From NCBI GenBank assembly GCA_019232625.1, contig JAFANP010000065.1:1-64000 (forward strand): a DNA stretch of 64,000 nt, written 5' to 3'. This document shows, piece by piece, positions 57,431 to 64,000 of this stretch. How positions within the stretch are numbered: the stretch's first letter is position 1; each line of letters starts with the position of its first letter. Position numbers and translations under genes: made by a program. Source of the stretch: Alphaproteobacteria bacterium. Lineage in GTDB: Bacteria > Pseudomonadota > Alphaproteobacteria > Sphingomonadales > Sphingomonadaceae. Below the pieces are notes generated by a model that did no database searches, was not told the DNA's origin, and saw only the letters and a list, made by a program, of their open reading frames with translations.

Positions 57431-57928
57431 TCAATCGATCAACCCATGTGACATTAATGTCGCAATGAGGGCGTCGATCGCCGCCCGCGCCTCCGCGTCG
57501 ATTATCGTTCCGCCTGAAGGACTTGGCACCGCCGGCCGGCGTTCCCCGACGACGATCCGGCCGCCCACGCTCAGGCCCGCGCAGCGCCACTCGCCGCCGC
57601 TCCAGGCGCTGCCGGTCCATTGCAGAGGCACCGCGTCCGCCTTGTTCCAGGCGGTCGTGCCGGGCTGCGGCGCGACGAAGCGCCAGCCCCCGCCGCTCCA
57701 GAGCGCCAGGCCGTGGTCCTGCCCTGCCCAGGCGCCGGCCGCTCCGGCGGCGACGATCCAGCATTGCCCCTCCTGCGGGTCCGGCGGCGGCGCGGCGGCG
57801 GGCCCCTCCTCGACCGCGAGGTGGAGAAGGGCGTCGACGCGAAGCAGCGCCTCGTTGTGGAACAGCTCCTTCTGCGCCTGGCCCGGCACGATGAAGGGCA
57901 GGGCGAAACGCGGGCTCTGGTCGCTCAT
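57431..57928 (-). CDS. DUF2793-type protein (GTA/phage associated)
   Basis: PRFALPFIVPGQAQKELFHNEALLRVDALLHLAVE...GQCWIVAAGA. Confidence 0.85.
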   Translation of the reverse strand: MSDQSPRFALPFIVPGQAQKELFHNEALLRVDALLHLAVEEGPAAAPPPDPQEGQCWIVAAGAAGAWAGQDHGLALWSGGGWRFVAPQPGTTAWNKADAVPLQWTGSAWSGGEWRCAGLSVGGRIVVGERRPAVPSPSGGTIIDAEARAAIDALIATLMSHGLID

Positions 57929-57937
57929 GATCGTCTC

Positions 57938-60109
57938 CTAGTCGAGGCCGAGGGAAAGGGTGGCGGGGCGGGAGGCGGCGCCGGTGCCGAGCTGGACGAT
58001 CTCGATGGCGAGGGTCCCGGCCGCCCCGTCGGCGGCGATGTCGGCCGCGGCGTAGACGAAGGCCGGCGCGGCGGTCTCCGCCACCCGCCGCGAGGTCGCG
58101 GTGGCGAGCGTCACCCGGTAGAGCTGGCGCTCCTCGCCGAGCGGCGCGTCGGCGCCGTCGATCCAGGTCCAGCCGCTCCGGCTCCGCCGGGTCCAGCCGA
58201 TCGCCACGTCGCCGTCGGCGCGCCGCACGGCGGTGAGATGGACGGGCGAGGGCGGCCGCACCGCCTCGCCGCCGATCCGGCGTCGCGCCGCCTCTCCGCC
58301 CCCGCTGGCGAGGACCACGGCCTCGGCGCCGATCGCGGCCAGCGGCGGCTCGATCATGACGAGGGCGGCCGGGTCGATGAGACCGAAGGCCTCGCCCGGC
58401 AGGTGCGTGCCGCTCGCCCATTCCGTGCCGCGCCGGCCGCGCAGCAGCCGCGACAGCCTGAACCGTCGCGCGCCGAGCGGCACCGCCGTGCCGAACTGGA
58501 GAAGCTCGTCCCCCAGCACGGCGAGGTTGGCGCCGGCCGCCAGCGCGGCGTCGCTGCGGCTCTCCAGCCAGGCCTCGTCGGAGAGCAGCGTCACCTCGAT
58601 CGCACCGCCAAGGTCGAGCAACGTCGATCCCGCCGTGCCCGGGACGACCTGCGCGGCGCCGATCACCGCCGCGGGCGCAGTGCCGCCGGCCGCCTGCCAG
58701 CTCGCGCCGCCGTCCCAGCTCGCGGTGAGGTCGGCGCGGCGCCATCCTTCTCCCGTCCCCGCCGCCAGCACGGCGAGGCGGGGCCGCGTCGGCAGGTCGT
58801 CGGCCAGCGGCGCATCGACGATCACCAGGCGAGTCTCGCCGAGCAGCCGGTCCGGCGAGGGCGCGGCCCGTCCCGGATCGGCAGCGACGAGGCCCGCCGC
58901 CGCCCCCGGCTGCGCCTCCAGCTCCAGCGTCAGCGCCATGTGCTCGAGCGCCGCGGCGGCGACGCGCCACAGGCCGCGCCGGCCCTCCAGCGCGATCACC
59001 GCGCCCGGCCTAAGCCCCGCCCGGCGCCAGGGCAGGGACAGCCGCATCGTCTCGCGCCCCGCCCACAAACGCTTCAGCCGCGCCTCCGCCATGGCCTTCG
59101 CCTGGACGGCGCCGATCGCCGCGGGAAGCACCGCCCGCTCGGCGCGCGACGCCGGCCCGCCGCGGTGGGCGCGCTGGAGCCCCGCCTGGAAGTCCCGGTC
59201 CGGGTCGTAATAGGAAAGCGTCACCTCTGCCGGCAGCGCCGCAGCGCCCTTCCGGCGGGTCTGCGTCCGCCGCGGGCTTGCGTCGGCGGAGGCGCCGGCC
59301 TCGTCGGCGCCGAGCGTCGTCTCCGCCTCCCCGCCGGGCTGCGAGACGATCAGCCCCGCGGGCCCGTCGCGGAGGGTGAGACCGGCGGTCGCCACCAGCC
59401 CCTCGACGGCGGCGCGAAGGCTCTCCCCCGTCGCCGCATAGCCGGCGAGCGCCGGCGACGGGCCCGCCGCCACCTCGCCGCCGCTCAGCGCCGCGACGAT
59501 CGCCGCGACCGGCACCGGCCCCTCGTCCGCCTCCACCTCGAAGCTCAGCGAGGGGATGCGGTTGCCGTAATCGGCCAGCTCGAAATCCTCGAACACCGCA
59601 TAAGCGAGGCCGCGATAGGCCGGCGCGCCGCCCGCGCCCTCCGCGGCGACGATCAGCGGGTCGGGCGCCTGCGCCTCGTCCCCTTCGTGGAGCCGGAAGC
59701 CGGTCGGCGTCTTGAAGTCGCCCGCCTCGCCGCGCAGCAGCTTGCCGTCGGCCCAGATCCGTCCCACGGAGCGGATCGGCCGGCCCGACAGCGCCACCGC
59801 GAAGCTCACCGAATAGCTGTAGGAGACGGTCTTGGCCTGGCCCTTGCCGCCGCCGCCGGTGGCGCGGCGCTCCTTCAGGTCGGTCGCCCAGATCACCGTC
59901 CCGGCCACCCGCATCCGGCCGAACAACCGCGCTATGTCGCTGCCGTAATGCGACGTCTGCACCGCGAGGTCGCCGAGCCGCGGCCCCTGGCGCGGCTTGG
60001 GCGCGAACAGCCGCTGGTCGATCTGCTGGCCGACCAGCGCGCCGAGCGCCGCGCCGATCGGCCCGCCGAGCGCCTGGCCGGCGGTGCTGAGCACGAGCGT
60101 CGCCATCAT
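57938..60109 (-). CDS. GTA host-specificity/hub protein (RcGTA g15-like, short form)
   Basis: MMATLVLSTAGQALGGPIGAALGALVGQQIDQRLF...DIARLFGRMRVAGTVIWATDLKE; position after NlpC gene. Confidence 0.85.
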   Translation of the reverse strand: MMATLVLSTAGQALGGPIGAALGALVGQQIDQRLFAPKPRQGPRLGDLAVQTSHYGSDIARLFGRMRVAGTVIWATDLKERRATGGGGKGQAKTVSYSYSVSFAVALSGRPIRSVGRIWADGKLLRGEAGDFKTPTGFRLHEGDEAQAPDPLIVAAEGAGGAPAYRGLAYAVFEDFELADYGNRIPSLSFEVEADEGPVPVAAIVAALSGGEVAAGPSPALAGYAATGESLRAAVEGLVATAGLTLRDGPAGLIVSQPGGEAETTLGADEAGASADASPRRTQTRRKGAAALPAEVTLSYYDPDRDFQAGLQRAHRGGPASRAERAVLPAAIGAVQAKAMAEARLKRLWAGRETMRLSLPWRRAGLRPGAVIALEGRRGLWRVAAAALEHMALTLELEAQPGAAAGLVAADPGRAAPSPDRLLGETRLVIVDAPLADDLPTRPRLAVLAAGTGEGWRRADLTASWDGGASWQAAGGTAPAAVIGAAQVVPGTAGSTLLDLGGAIEVTLLSDEAWLESRSDAALAAGANLAVLGDELLQFGTAVPLGARRFRLSRLLRGRRGTEWASGTHLPGEAFGLIDPAALVMIEPPLAAIGAEAVVLASGGGEAARRRIGGEAVRPPSPVHLTAVRRADGDVAIGWTRRSRSGWTWIDGADAPLGEERQLYRVTLATATSRRVAETAAPAFVYAAADIAADGAAGTLAIEIVQLGTGAASRPATLSLGLD

Positions 60110-60513
60110 TCGCCTCCCGCCGGCCGCCACACGCCGGCCACCGGCCAGGGGAAGGGCCGCGGCCGCTCCACCACCAGGCGCAGGCCGGCATCGGCATGGA
60201 TGAAGGACGGGCCGGTGCAGAGGAGGACGTGGAACTGGGCCGGTCCCACCTCGCAGACGACGACGTCGCCCGCCTCCGCCTCGCCCTCCGGCACCGGCAC
60301 GCAGCCGAGGTCGCAAAGCTCGTGCTCGATCAGGGCGAGATGCTCGCCCCTCAGGTCGTAGTCGGCCGGCAGCCGCTCCGCCGGGACTCCGGCCGCGGCC
60401 GCGGCGACGCCGACGCAGTCCAGCCCGAGCATCGGGTCCCGCCCCTGCGGCCGGAAGCGCATGCCTATCAGGCCGCGCGCTCGCGCGGCTATGTCGTCGC
60501 CTCTGATGCTCAT
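60106..60513 (-). CDS. NlpC/P60-type peptidase (RcGTA g14-like)
   Basis: ARGLIGMRFRPQGRDPMLGLDCVGVAAAAAG; HADAGLRLVVE; ATGA overlaps with both neighbours. Confidence 0.88.
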   Translation of the reverse strand: MSIRGDDIAARARGLIGMRFRPQGRDPMLGLDCVGVAAAAAGVPAERLPADYDLRGEHLALIEHELCDLGCVPVPEGEAEAGDVVVCEVGPAQFHVLLCTGPSFIHADAGLRLVVERPRPFPWPVAGVWRPAGGE

Positions 60514-61326: not shown

Positions 61327-63588
61327 TCAGCCCTCCCGTATCTCGATCAGCGGCACCGAGGCCGCGTCGCCGGCGGCGAAGGTCGCCCGGCTCACCGCCA
61401 GCCGGTCCTCGGCGAAGCGCACCGGCACGTCGAAGCCGAAGCTCGCCGTCACCGCCTCGCCCGGCGCGGGCGGCGCGTCGAAGCGGACGATGCCGCCCTC
61501 GCCGAGCAGCCATCCGCTCTCCCGCGCGGTCCCCGCCACCTTCACCCGCACGCTTCCTGCCACCGGCCGGGTGATCCGCCGCCTTTGCGCGCCATAGGTC
61601 TTGACCAGCGCGAAGTCGGTGCGCTCCCCGTCGCCGGCGCCGAGCGCCTGGTCCTCCGCCGCATGGTCGAACGGGTCCTGGAAGCGGAAGCCCACCGCCG
61701 CGCCGCGCCTCGCCCGGAAGAAGTCGAGCAGGGTCCTGAGCTCCGCCTCGCTCCTCAGCCCCGGCCCGGCGTCGAACCGCATCCGCGCCTCGGCCCAGTC
61801 GCTGTTGCGCTGCTCCGCGCCGCTCGCGCTCGTCACCACCGCCGTCGAGAAAGCGGGCTCGACGCTCGCCTCCCGGCCCAGCGCGATCGGAAAGCGCACG
61901 TCGTCGAATGGCTGCACCGCCTCCTCCTCTCCCGTTTCGAACCATGTCAGGCCGTCGCGCATCACCTGCGGCAGCGCCCAGGCGAAGACTTCCGCCGCGC
62001 CGCGCCGCCGCGCCGCCGCGATCGCCGCGGCGATCCGGCTCCAGTCCGAGCGTCCTTCCGGAACGGCGACGAAGCCCGCCAGATAATGCTGGGCCTCGGG
62101 CGGATAGCCGAGCCGCGAGCCCGCCTCGGCGGCGCCGCGCTCGGATGCGGCGGCGCGGCCGCCGGTCACCCATTCGTAATCCTCGAGCTGAAGCACGTCG
62201 AAGGCCGGCGGGCCCCAGCCGTAGGGCAGGTTCGCCCGCCGCACCTCGGCGCCGTCGAGCACCGTCGGCAGGTAGGCGAGGAGCAGCGCCTCCATGTCGG
62301 GATGCGCCGCCCGTACCGCCCCGACCAGCGCCGCCGTCGACTGCGCCAGCACCGCCCCGGCATCGTCCAGCGTCGCCCTCTCGGCCTCCGAGAGCGGCGC
62401 CCGCACGTCGGCGATCGGCGCCGGCGCGAAGGCCAGGGCGGCGGCGGCGTCGTAGAGGCAGGGCCGCCCGTCCGGCCGCACCCACCACCACGGCTCGCCG
62501 ACCTGGAAGCGCACCCTGAGCCCTGCCGCCGCGGCGATCCCCGCAAAGGCGGCCGCCACCTGGCGCAGATAGGCCATCGCCCCGCCATGCGCCGGCGACA
62601 GCAGCGCCGAGGGGGGGTCCCAGCCGGTCAGCGCGGGCGATCCGTCCTCCGCCCGCTGCTTCCAGTCGCCCCAGCAATGCCGGTCGAGCAGCTCGTAGGA
62701 GAGGGAGAGGATGAGCTCGTAGCCGAGCGTCTTCGCCCGTGCCGCGAGGTCGCGGTGCCACGCCCCGCAGGGCGCGTTGAGCGCGCCGCCGGCGAGGCTG
62801 GCATAATAGCCCGCGCCGTTCGCCTCGAGCCGGAAATAATGGCTCATCCCGACATAATGGTTGATCGGCCCGCGATAGCCGAGGTGGAGGACGTTCCGCA
62901 TCAGCCGCGCCGGGGTCAGGTGATAGGCGTCGTCATAGCCGGTCGCGATCCGCAGCCGGTGCTCGGGCACCAGGGTCTCGCCGATCGCCAGGACCGATCC
63001 GGCGCCGTCGCAGGCGATCGCGCTCAGCTCGGCCCAGCCTTCCGCCGGCGCGGCGAGCGGGCCGTCCTCGCCGTCATAGCCCGGCGCCACCAGCGACACG
63101 AACATCCGGTCGACGTCGCCCGCCCAGACCGGGTCGTCGCCCTCCCAGCCGCCGGCCAGCGCGTCGAAGTCGAGCGCCACCGCCGCGTCCTCGGGGCTGC
63201 CCTCGGCCCAGTTCCACAGCCGCACGAACCAGCTTCGCGCCTCGCCGCCCGCGTCGCGTCCCTCGACGGTCAGCGTCGGCCCGTTCACCGCGTCGAGCGG
63301 AAGCACTCCGCCGCTCCGCCACCGGAAGCCCAGCCGGCAGCCGCGCAGGTCGCGGCTGGTCTCATAAGCGAGCAGCGGATGGTCGAACCGGTCCTCCGCC
63401 TCCCAGATCAGCCCGGCAAGGTCGTCGGTGCGGTAGAAGACGGCGTCGACGCGCAGCGCGTCGGGCGCCGGATTGGTCGCCGCCGCCATCATCGGCCGCG
63501 GGAAGTTGACGCTCCAGAAGCGGGCGTCGAACCTTTTGACGTGCCCCATCTGCATCGCGGCGCCCGGCGGCGCCAGCCAATAGCCCAT
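61327..63588 (-). CDS. GTA tail protein: large N-terminal TIM-barrel-like region fused to C-terminal DUF2460 (RcGTA g12-like)
   Basis: C-terminal FDDVRFPIALGREASVEPAFSTAVVTSASGAEQRNSDWAEARMRFDAG typical DUF2460; N-terminal ~540 aa with YELILSLSYELL, RVRFQVGEPWWWV, EALLLAYLPTVL, FDVLQLEDYEWV, EVFAWALPQVM strand-like segments. Confidence 0.85.
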   Translation of the reverse strand: MGYWLAPPGAAMQMGHVKRFDARFWSVNFPRPMMAAATNPAPDALRVDAVFYRTDDLAGLIWEAEDRFDHPLLAYETSRDLRGCRLGFRWRSGGVLPLDAVNGPTLTVEGRDAGGEARSWFVRLWNWAEGSPEDAAVALDFDALAGGWEGDDPVWAGDVDRMFVSLVAPGYDGEDGPLAAPAEGWAELSAIACDGAGSVLAIGETLVPEHRLRIATGYDDAYHLTPARLMRNVLHLGYRGPINHYVGMSHYFRLEANGAGYYASLAGGALNAPCGAWHRDLAARAKTLGYELILSLSYELLDRHCWGDWKQRAEDGSPALTGWDPPSALLSPAHGGAMAYLRQVAAAFAGIAAAAGLRVRFQVGEPWWWVRPDGRPCLYDAAAALAFAPAPIADVRAPLSEAERATLDDAGAVLAQSTAALVGAVRAAHPDMEALLLAYLPTVLDGAEVRRANLPYGWGPPAFDVLQLEDYEWVTGGRAAASERGAAEAGSRLGYPPEAQHYLAGFVAVPEGRSDWSRIAAAIAAARRRGAAEVFAWALPQVMRDGLTWFETGEEEAVQPFDDVRFPIALGREASVEPAFSTAVVTSASGAEQRNSDWAEARMRFDAGPGLRSEAELRTLLDFFRARRGAAVGFRFQDPFDHAAEDQALGAGDGERTDFALVKTYGAQRRRITRPVAGSVRVKVAGTARESGWLLGEGGIVRFDAPPAPGEAVTASFGFDVPVRFAEDRLAVSRATFAAGDAASVPLIEIREG

Positions 63589-63591
63589 GGC

Positions 63592-64000
63592 TCAATCCTC
63601 CAGCTGCTCGAGCGCGCGCCGCACCTCGCGGGCGATCTGGCGGGTGGAGCGGGCCAGCGCCTGCGGCGCGGCCGCGGCCGGCGCGTTGACGGCGATGCTC
63701 ACGCGTATCTCGCGCCCGCCTGCGCCGCCCGGCTCGATCCGCCCGGCCGCCGTCGGCACGAACAATTCCGGCCCCCGCTCGCCGACCCGGTAGGCGCGGC
63801 CGGCCGTCACCGGCCCGCCCGTCGCCCGGCCGGAGGCGCCGAGCGCGCCGGCCAGCACCTGGGCCAGGGCGCCGAGCGCGCCGCCCGCGGCCCCGCCGCC
63901 GCCCTTGCCCCCGCCGCCGCCGAGCAGCTCGGCGATCCCGGCGCGATAGGCGGCGGCTGCGATCTCGGCCATCGCCGAAAGCGCAACCTGCTTGAGGTCG
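63592..64000 (-). CDS. phage/GTA tail tape-measure protein, C-terminal part (gene continues beyond window)
   Basis: GRAYRVGERGPELFVPTAAGRIEP motif typical of tape-measure C-termini; position upstream of DUF2460 gene. Confidence 0.8.
   Translation of the reverse strand, partial: DLKQVALSAMAEIAAAAYRAGIAELLGGGGGKGGGGAAGGALGALAQVLAGALGASGRATGGPVTAGRAYRVGERGPELFVPTAAGRIEPGGAGGREIRVSIAVNAPAAAAPQALARSTRQIAREVRRALEQLED

Follow-up and report, generated by a model that had tools for sequence, protein, structure and literature searches.

The window, a stretch of 64,000 nucleotides from a bacterium of the Sphingomonadaceae (contig JAFANP010000065.1, positions 1 to 64,000), ends within a tail gene cluster. 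The cluster resembles that of RcGTA, the GTA of Rhodobacterales to which structural work on alphaproteobacterial GTAs refers as its model. The gene order read from the letters alone in an earlier note, with a tape measure, a DUF2460 protein, a DUF2163-type hub, a small protein in the NlpC position and g15, was found as described (Table 1). Beyond the window, the upstream genes encode the remainder of the 229-aa tape measure, TAC, GTA-gp10, a TP901-type tail tube and a tail completion protein and, farther upstream, a gp8-type connector, an RCAP_Rcc01079-family spike base protein and an HK97 capsid, at which the contig ends. The head genes are divided between two contigs (C40 and C47), with the genome's sole portal match 1.7 kb short of the C40 terminus. 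The downstream flank consists of cellular genes, e.g., those for an OmpA-like protein and a nucleotide-sugar dehydrogenase. With its conserved head-tail gene order, short tape measure and spike base protein, the cluster is read as an RcGTA-type cluster split across two contigs.

Table 1. Features of the tail gene cluster, with positions given in the window.
Feature	Position	Strand	Evidence
Tape measure protein (229 aa), C-terminal part; runs on past the window	63592..64000	-	ORF, position
Three-domain protein in the g12 position: non-contractile tail sheath module and distal tail protein	61327..63588	-	Pfam, NCBIfam; AlphaFold2 pLDDT 90.7
NCTSP_N (PF23844), residues 17-203	62980..63540	-	Pfam E 9.8e-92; first part matches N4 gp65 46-130
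TIM-barrel_NCTSP (PF23845), residues 208-546	61951..62967	-	Pfam E 3.7e-157; predicted (β/α)8 barrel; Foldseek to N4 gp64
Glu299, just past barrel strand 3, invariant	62692..62694	-	Alignments, AlphaFold2 model
Glu365 (GEPWWW), end of barrel strand 4, invariant	62494..62496	-	Alignments, AlphaFold2 model
Glu469 (LEDY), end of barrel strand 6, invariant	62182..62184	-	Alignments, AlphaFold2 model
DUF2460/TIGR02217 distal tail protein domain, residues 562-751	61336..61905	-	Pfam E 3.5e-70, NCBIfam E 1.6e-53; matches RcGTA Rcc01695 (6tba)
Hub protein (g13): Phage_phiJL001_Gp84_N and Phage_BR0599/TIGR02218	60510..61325	-	Pfam, NCBIfam
NlpC/P60-position protein (g14)	60106..60513	-	Pfam weak (E 0.26, below cut-off); position
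g15/megatron homologue, 723 aa, without GTA_TIM barrel	57938..60109	-	Pfam, NCBIfam, AlphaFold
DUF2793 protein directly downstream of g15	57431..57928	-	Pfam E 3.4e-29

The gene in the g12 position forms an intact frame of 753 amino acids from its ATG. NCTSP_N and TIM-barrel_NCTSP follow each other in order at 305.9 and 523.2 bits, respectively, against Pfam cut-offs of 27; the N-terminal region of about 545 aa, suspected earlier of being a fusion and tentatively linked to the non-contractile-tail-sheath family, thus belongs to both NCTSP families. The C-terminal part, estimated beforehand at some 205 DUF2460-like residues, corresponds to DUF2460/TIGR02217 over 190 aa. Its full-length match to TIGR02217 (181.4 bits, cut-off 136.65) and its place between the tape measure and the hub identify it as a distal tail protein of the RcGTA type, and NCBIfam names it the Rcc01695-family distal tail protein. 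The domain aligns end to end with the RcGTA distal tail protein Rcc01695 (g12), which differs in consisting of about 210 aa devoid of any N-terminal module. As phrog_6040, a PHROG with no assigned function, spans residues 11-739 of the fused protein, a family database already contains the fusion, where it stands without interpretation. Taken separately, the distal tail domain matches phrog_2913, a PHROG called glycoside hydrolase. Fusions of this NCTSP-distal tail protein kind may explain why the distal tail protein of R4C has been linked to glycoside hydrolases (PMC10276861).

AlphaFold2, supplied with 64 relatives, confidently predicts a (β/α)8 barrel (pLDDT 90.7, pTM 0.80) with strands at residues 213-217, 241-245, 291-297, 360-364, 433-439, 465-469, 500-503 and 533-537. 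In Foldseek searches, N4 gp64 came out on top, in a leading group with N4 gp65 and the distal tail protein of R4C. Glycoside hydrolases from several families came next, among them enzymes of GH31 and GH66 as well as the C-terminal domain of PgaB (target TM 0.54). The TIM-barrel, glycosidase-like fold guessed from the letters is therefore borne out by the model; the resemblance is structural only, as no glycoside hydrolase family in Pfam or NCBIfam matches the sequence of the fused protein. The motifs QVGEPWWW and LQLEDYEW, previously pointed out as possible strand ends, coincide with the ends of the predicted strands β4 and β6, and their glutamates are invariant in distant phage homologues. 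Glu299, Glu365 and Glu469 are located at the mouth of the barrel and are invariant across 344-346 barrels, a count biased by the many loci fetched with patterns including GEPWWW or the ED motif; they are equally invariant in the sets collected with Pfam profiles or tblastn. The predicted model thus shows two traits of glycoside hydrolases, a TIM-barrel fold and acidic residues conserved where strands end, and the position of the three glutamates suggests glycan binding or cleavage. In clan GH-A, the active-site residues occur on strands 4 and 7. An active site of that clan is unsupported here, the invariant glutamates being distributed over strands 3, 4 and 6, and the modelled location of the second conserved glutamate on strand 6 instead of strand 7 would count against a glycosidase role.

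The closest known counterpart of the module is the gp64:gp65 sheath of phage N4 (PDB codes 9lc0, 9yf4 and 9yf5), in which gp65 46-130 and 343-416 correspond to NCTSP_N and the beginning of the barrel, and gp64 111-410 to the rest of the barrel. The N4 module is divided between two proteins and its gp65 carries large C-terminal receptor parts, whereas the Sphingomonadales module lies on a single chain with the distal tail protein at its C-terminal end. The NCTSP barrel is also split over two adjacent genes in phiAxp-3 and PspYZU01 (L399:1323-6807 and L401:2180-8109), as it is, by profile alignment, in N4. Profile positions 1-46 belong to one protein and those from about 55 on to its neighbour, and the two N4 pieces probably form one barrel. 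A distal-tail-like segment past the barrel of Pseudomonas phage PspYZU01 was considered and set aside as too weak (E 6.6e-4, below cut-off; E 0.0056 with a profile built for this analysis). In Pseudomonas phage Pavpe01, the gene of the NCTSP protein directly follows that of the distal tail protein, and a relative occurs in Loki-like siphophages; these phages differ from the Sphingomonadales cluster by their separate distal tail protein and by about 200 unassigned residues past the barrel.

RcGTA also displays a barrel at its baseplate, which belongs to another family (GTA_TIM, PF13547) and resides on another carrier protein, the megatron Rcc01698. In the present genome, profile searches found GTA_TIM neither in g15 nor anywhere else, which sets this g15 apart from the RcGTA megatron. 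The 723-aa protein matches Phage-tail_3 and Rcc01698_C and reaches 432 bits with NF048004, whose cut-off is 800. Its AlphaFold model yields the megatron and other tail-tip proteins in Foldseek, with no barrel among the top matches, and a hidden barrel in g15 is thereby ruled out. The earlier reading of g15 as short and barrel-less therefore holds, and the full TIM barrel in g15 that would have spoken against it was found neither by Pfam nor by AlphaFold and Foldseek. The idea attached to it, that a barrel was shuffled from g15 to g12 within the cluster, would account for the lack of GTA_TIM in g15 exactly where g12 has a barrel, but several results speak against it: the fused protein has no Pfam match to GTA_TIM, profile-profile alignment (hhalign) of the NCTSP barrel with GTA_TIM gives a probability of 0.8%, the conserved motifs of the two families differ, and the barrel is accompanied by NCTSP_N in a module matching phage sheath proteins at E 1e-76. 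Such a move is extremely improbable; in the absence of detectable homology between the two barrel families, replacement fits better. The barrel on g12, its glycosidase-like fold, the NCTSP family and the short g15 thus stand from the earlier interpretation, while the transfer from g15 does not.

The fusion extends throughout the order and is not peculiar to this strain, which the earlier note had not foreseen; its recurrence rules out an assembly or strain artefact. Among 301 genomes drawn from Sphingomonadales, PF23845 was counted at E <= 0.001 in 164 and DUF2460 in 167, and GTA_TIM exceeded its cut-off in none; cross-listing by hand gave both domains in 163 genomes, DUF2460 only in 4 and a marginal barrel only in 1. 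Named relatives belong to Sphingomonas, Sphingobium, Novosphingobium, Qipengyuania, Sphingorhabdus and others. In a sample of 318 genomes from the class, DUF2460 was found in 49, accompanied by GTA_TIM in 27, by NCTSP in 4, by both in 0 and by neither in 18; a barrel is thus not obligatory. Over all loci examined, the complete NCTSP_N, barrel and distal tail protein fusion occurred at 311 and both barrel families together at 0. Where GTA_TIM is present, it sits on a g15 of about 1200-1500 aa in the loci inspected (one apparent frame of 2684 aa is an artefact), and DUF2460 forms a separate protein of 193-263 aa in 17 of 18 loci, none having been found in the eighteenth. The comparison of g12 and g15 proposed earlier distinguishes, where a barrel is present, two arrangements across alphaproteobacterial GTAs, GTA_TIM on g15 with a small DUF2460 protein, or an NCTSP module with a barrel-less g15.

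It could be argued that the locus is an ordinary degrading prophage whose fusion has no role in gene transfer, taking into account that the head genes, divided between C40 and C47, are not seen intact in one piece and that related siphophages carry NCTSP proteins. However, the fused frame is intact, its two domains recur with invariant residues in 163/301 genomes of the order, the spike base protein and the 229-aa tape measure fit the RcGTA type, and the IMG/VR contigs carrying the fusion are mostly shorter than 20 kb, many of them having the GTA size of 13-18 kb, which makes a decaying prophage quite improbable. Some database entries call for comment. IMG/VR contigs L127-L206 and similar ones, many of 13-18 kb, are listed as viral and look like Sphingomonadales GTA clusters; QDFQ01000001.1 (L062), titled Arthrobacter sp. 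TPD3018, has a typical Sphingomonas GTA gene and is probably mislabelled or contaminated; MT840053.1 (L244), an unverified 'Bacteriophage sp.', contains the g12 fusion gene at 62% identity, broken into two frames, and is likely a GTA fragment; and the open frame of 32612 aa running through the g15 gene of L216 (G353:C1:1667000-1681000) is probably an artefact of masked bases.

A second lineage, equally unforeseen, carries the module on the hub. In three genomes from another alphaproteobacterial family (L207, L228 and L229), NCTSP_N and the barrel occupy the N-terminus of g13, the distal tail protein is encoded on its own and g15 consists of about 750-800 aa without GTA_TIM; the same fusion occurs on several IMG/VR contigs, two of them of about 41 kb. 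These hub fusions share with the g12 fusion the module, the operon and the barrel-less g15, and differ in their carrier protein. In the barrel tree, a branch separates the distal tail protein fusions from the hub fusions, with the Pavpe01 siphophage protein on the hub side. The g15 tree requires few changes, and the mutual exclusivity of the two barrels thus rests on few independent events, namely a single origin for the distal tail protein fusion and one or two for the hub fusion. Other rearrangements were encountered in this part of the cluster: a 672-aa protein (L236:4961-6979) links a hub attachment domain to Phage-tail_3 and Rcc01698_C in a hub-megatron fusion, and the hubs of L239 (6259-8328) and L242 (7886-10441), of 689 and 851 aa, contain large insertions between their two hub domains, the g15 proteins of these two loci (1167 and 1271 aa) exhibiting a region without Pfam match ahead of Phage-tail_3.

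The g12 protein of the Sphingomonadales RcGTA-type GTA is probably, on balance, a ring protein equipped with an N4-type module, which would form a glycan-acting collar of six copies in replacement of the megatron GTA_TIM barrel. A complete module, made of NCTSP_N and a TIM barrel of glycosidase-like predicted fold, precedes the distal tail protein domain on the same chain. Because the RcGTA distal tail protein forms one hexameric ring (PMC7296036), each particle would carry six copies; fused to a ring protein, they would build a collar at the tail/baseplate junction and not a sheath along the tail. This collar would most likely bind, and perhaps cleave, a cell-surface glycan by means of the three invariant glutamates of the barrel mouth, and may stand in for the unrelated peripheral TIM barrel located on g15 of other alphaproteobacterial GTAs. 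As a point against this arrangement, the N-terminus of the RcGTA distal tail protein contacts the baseplate (PMC7296036), and the fusion would need a rearranged exit path. The small number of evolutionary events behind the exclusivity and the 18 of 49 DUF2460 genomes with neither barrel also count against the proposed replacement.

A serious rival, considered rather unlikely, is a purely architectural module, i.e., a collar serving to stiffen or shield the joint between tail and baseplate, with glutamates that hold the barrel together and fibres or spikes that recognize the glycan. It agrees with the N4 gp64:gp65 module, which forms a sheath of six-fold symmetry around the tail (PMC12633501), and with a conservation that covers many residues and not the mouth alone. 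In the N4-like phage phiAxp-3, moreover, the receptor-binding part, directed against LPS, maps to the C-terminal residues 795-1195 of the sheath (PMC5862860), outside the conserved module, which would count against a glycan role. A structural function accounts less readily for acidic residues at the C-terminal ends of strands 3, 4 and 6, the usual place of the active site in barrel enzymes, for fold neighbours that are glycoside hydrolases, and for a module never found together with the other baseplate barrel in the genomes sampled. The glycan-acting collar thus remains the preferred reading.

The domain families and the sequence of the fusion are already known from databases. Searches of the open-access literature (PubMed Central) brought up no account of the fusion, of the mutual exclusion with the megatron barrel across the order or of the module on the hub, and neither the exclusivity nor the switch of carrier protein appears to have been described so far. 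The function of the baseplate-protruding domains of RcGTA, including the megatron barrel, has been described as unknown (PMC13420450). In practice, GTA screens demanding a full-length megatron may miss the GTAs of Sphingomonadales. More tentatively, GTA and siphophage baseplates could have in common an interchangeable site for a barrel acting on glycans, occupied either by GTA_TIM on the megatron or by an N4-type module on a nearby ring protein, the distal tail protein or the hub, so that Sphingomonadales GTAs would select their recipients by a six-fold glycosidase collar. In this respect, an order which is devoid of the megatron barrel but possesses an unrelated barrel on the ring above points to a role shared by both.
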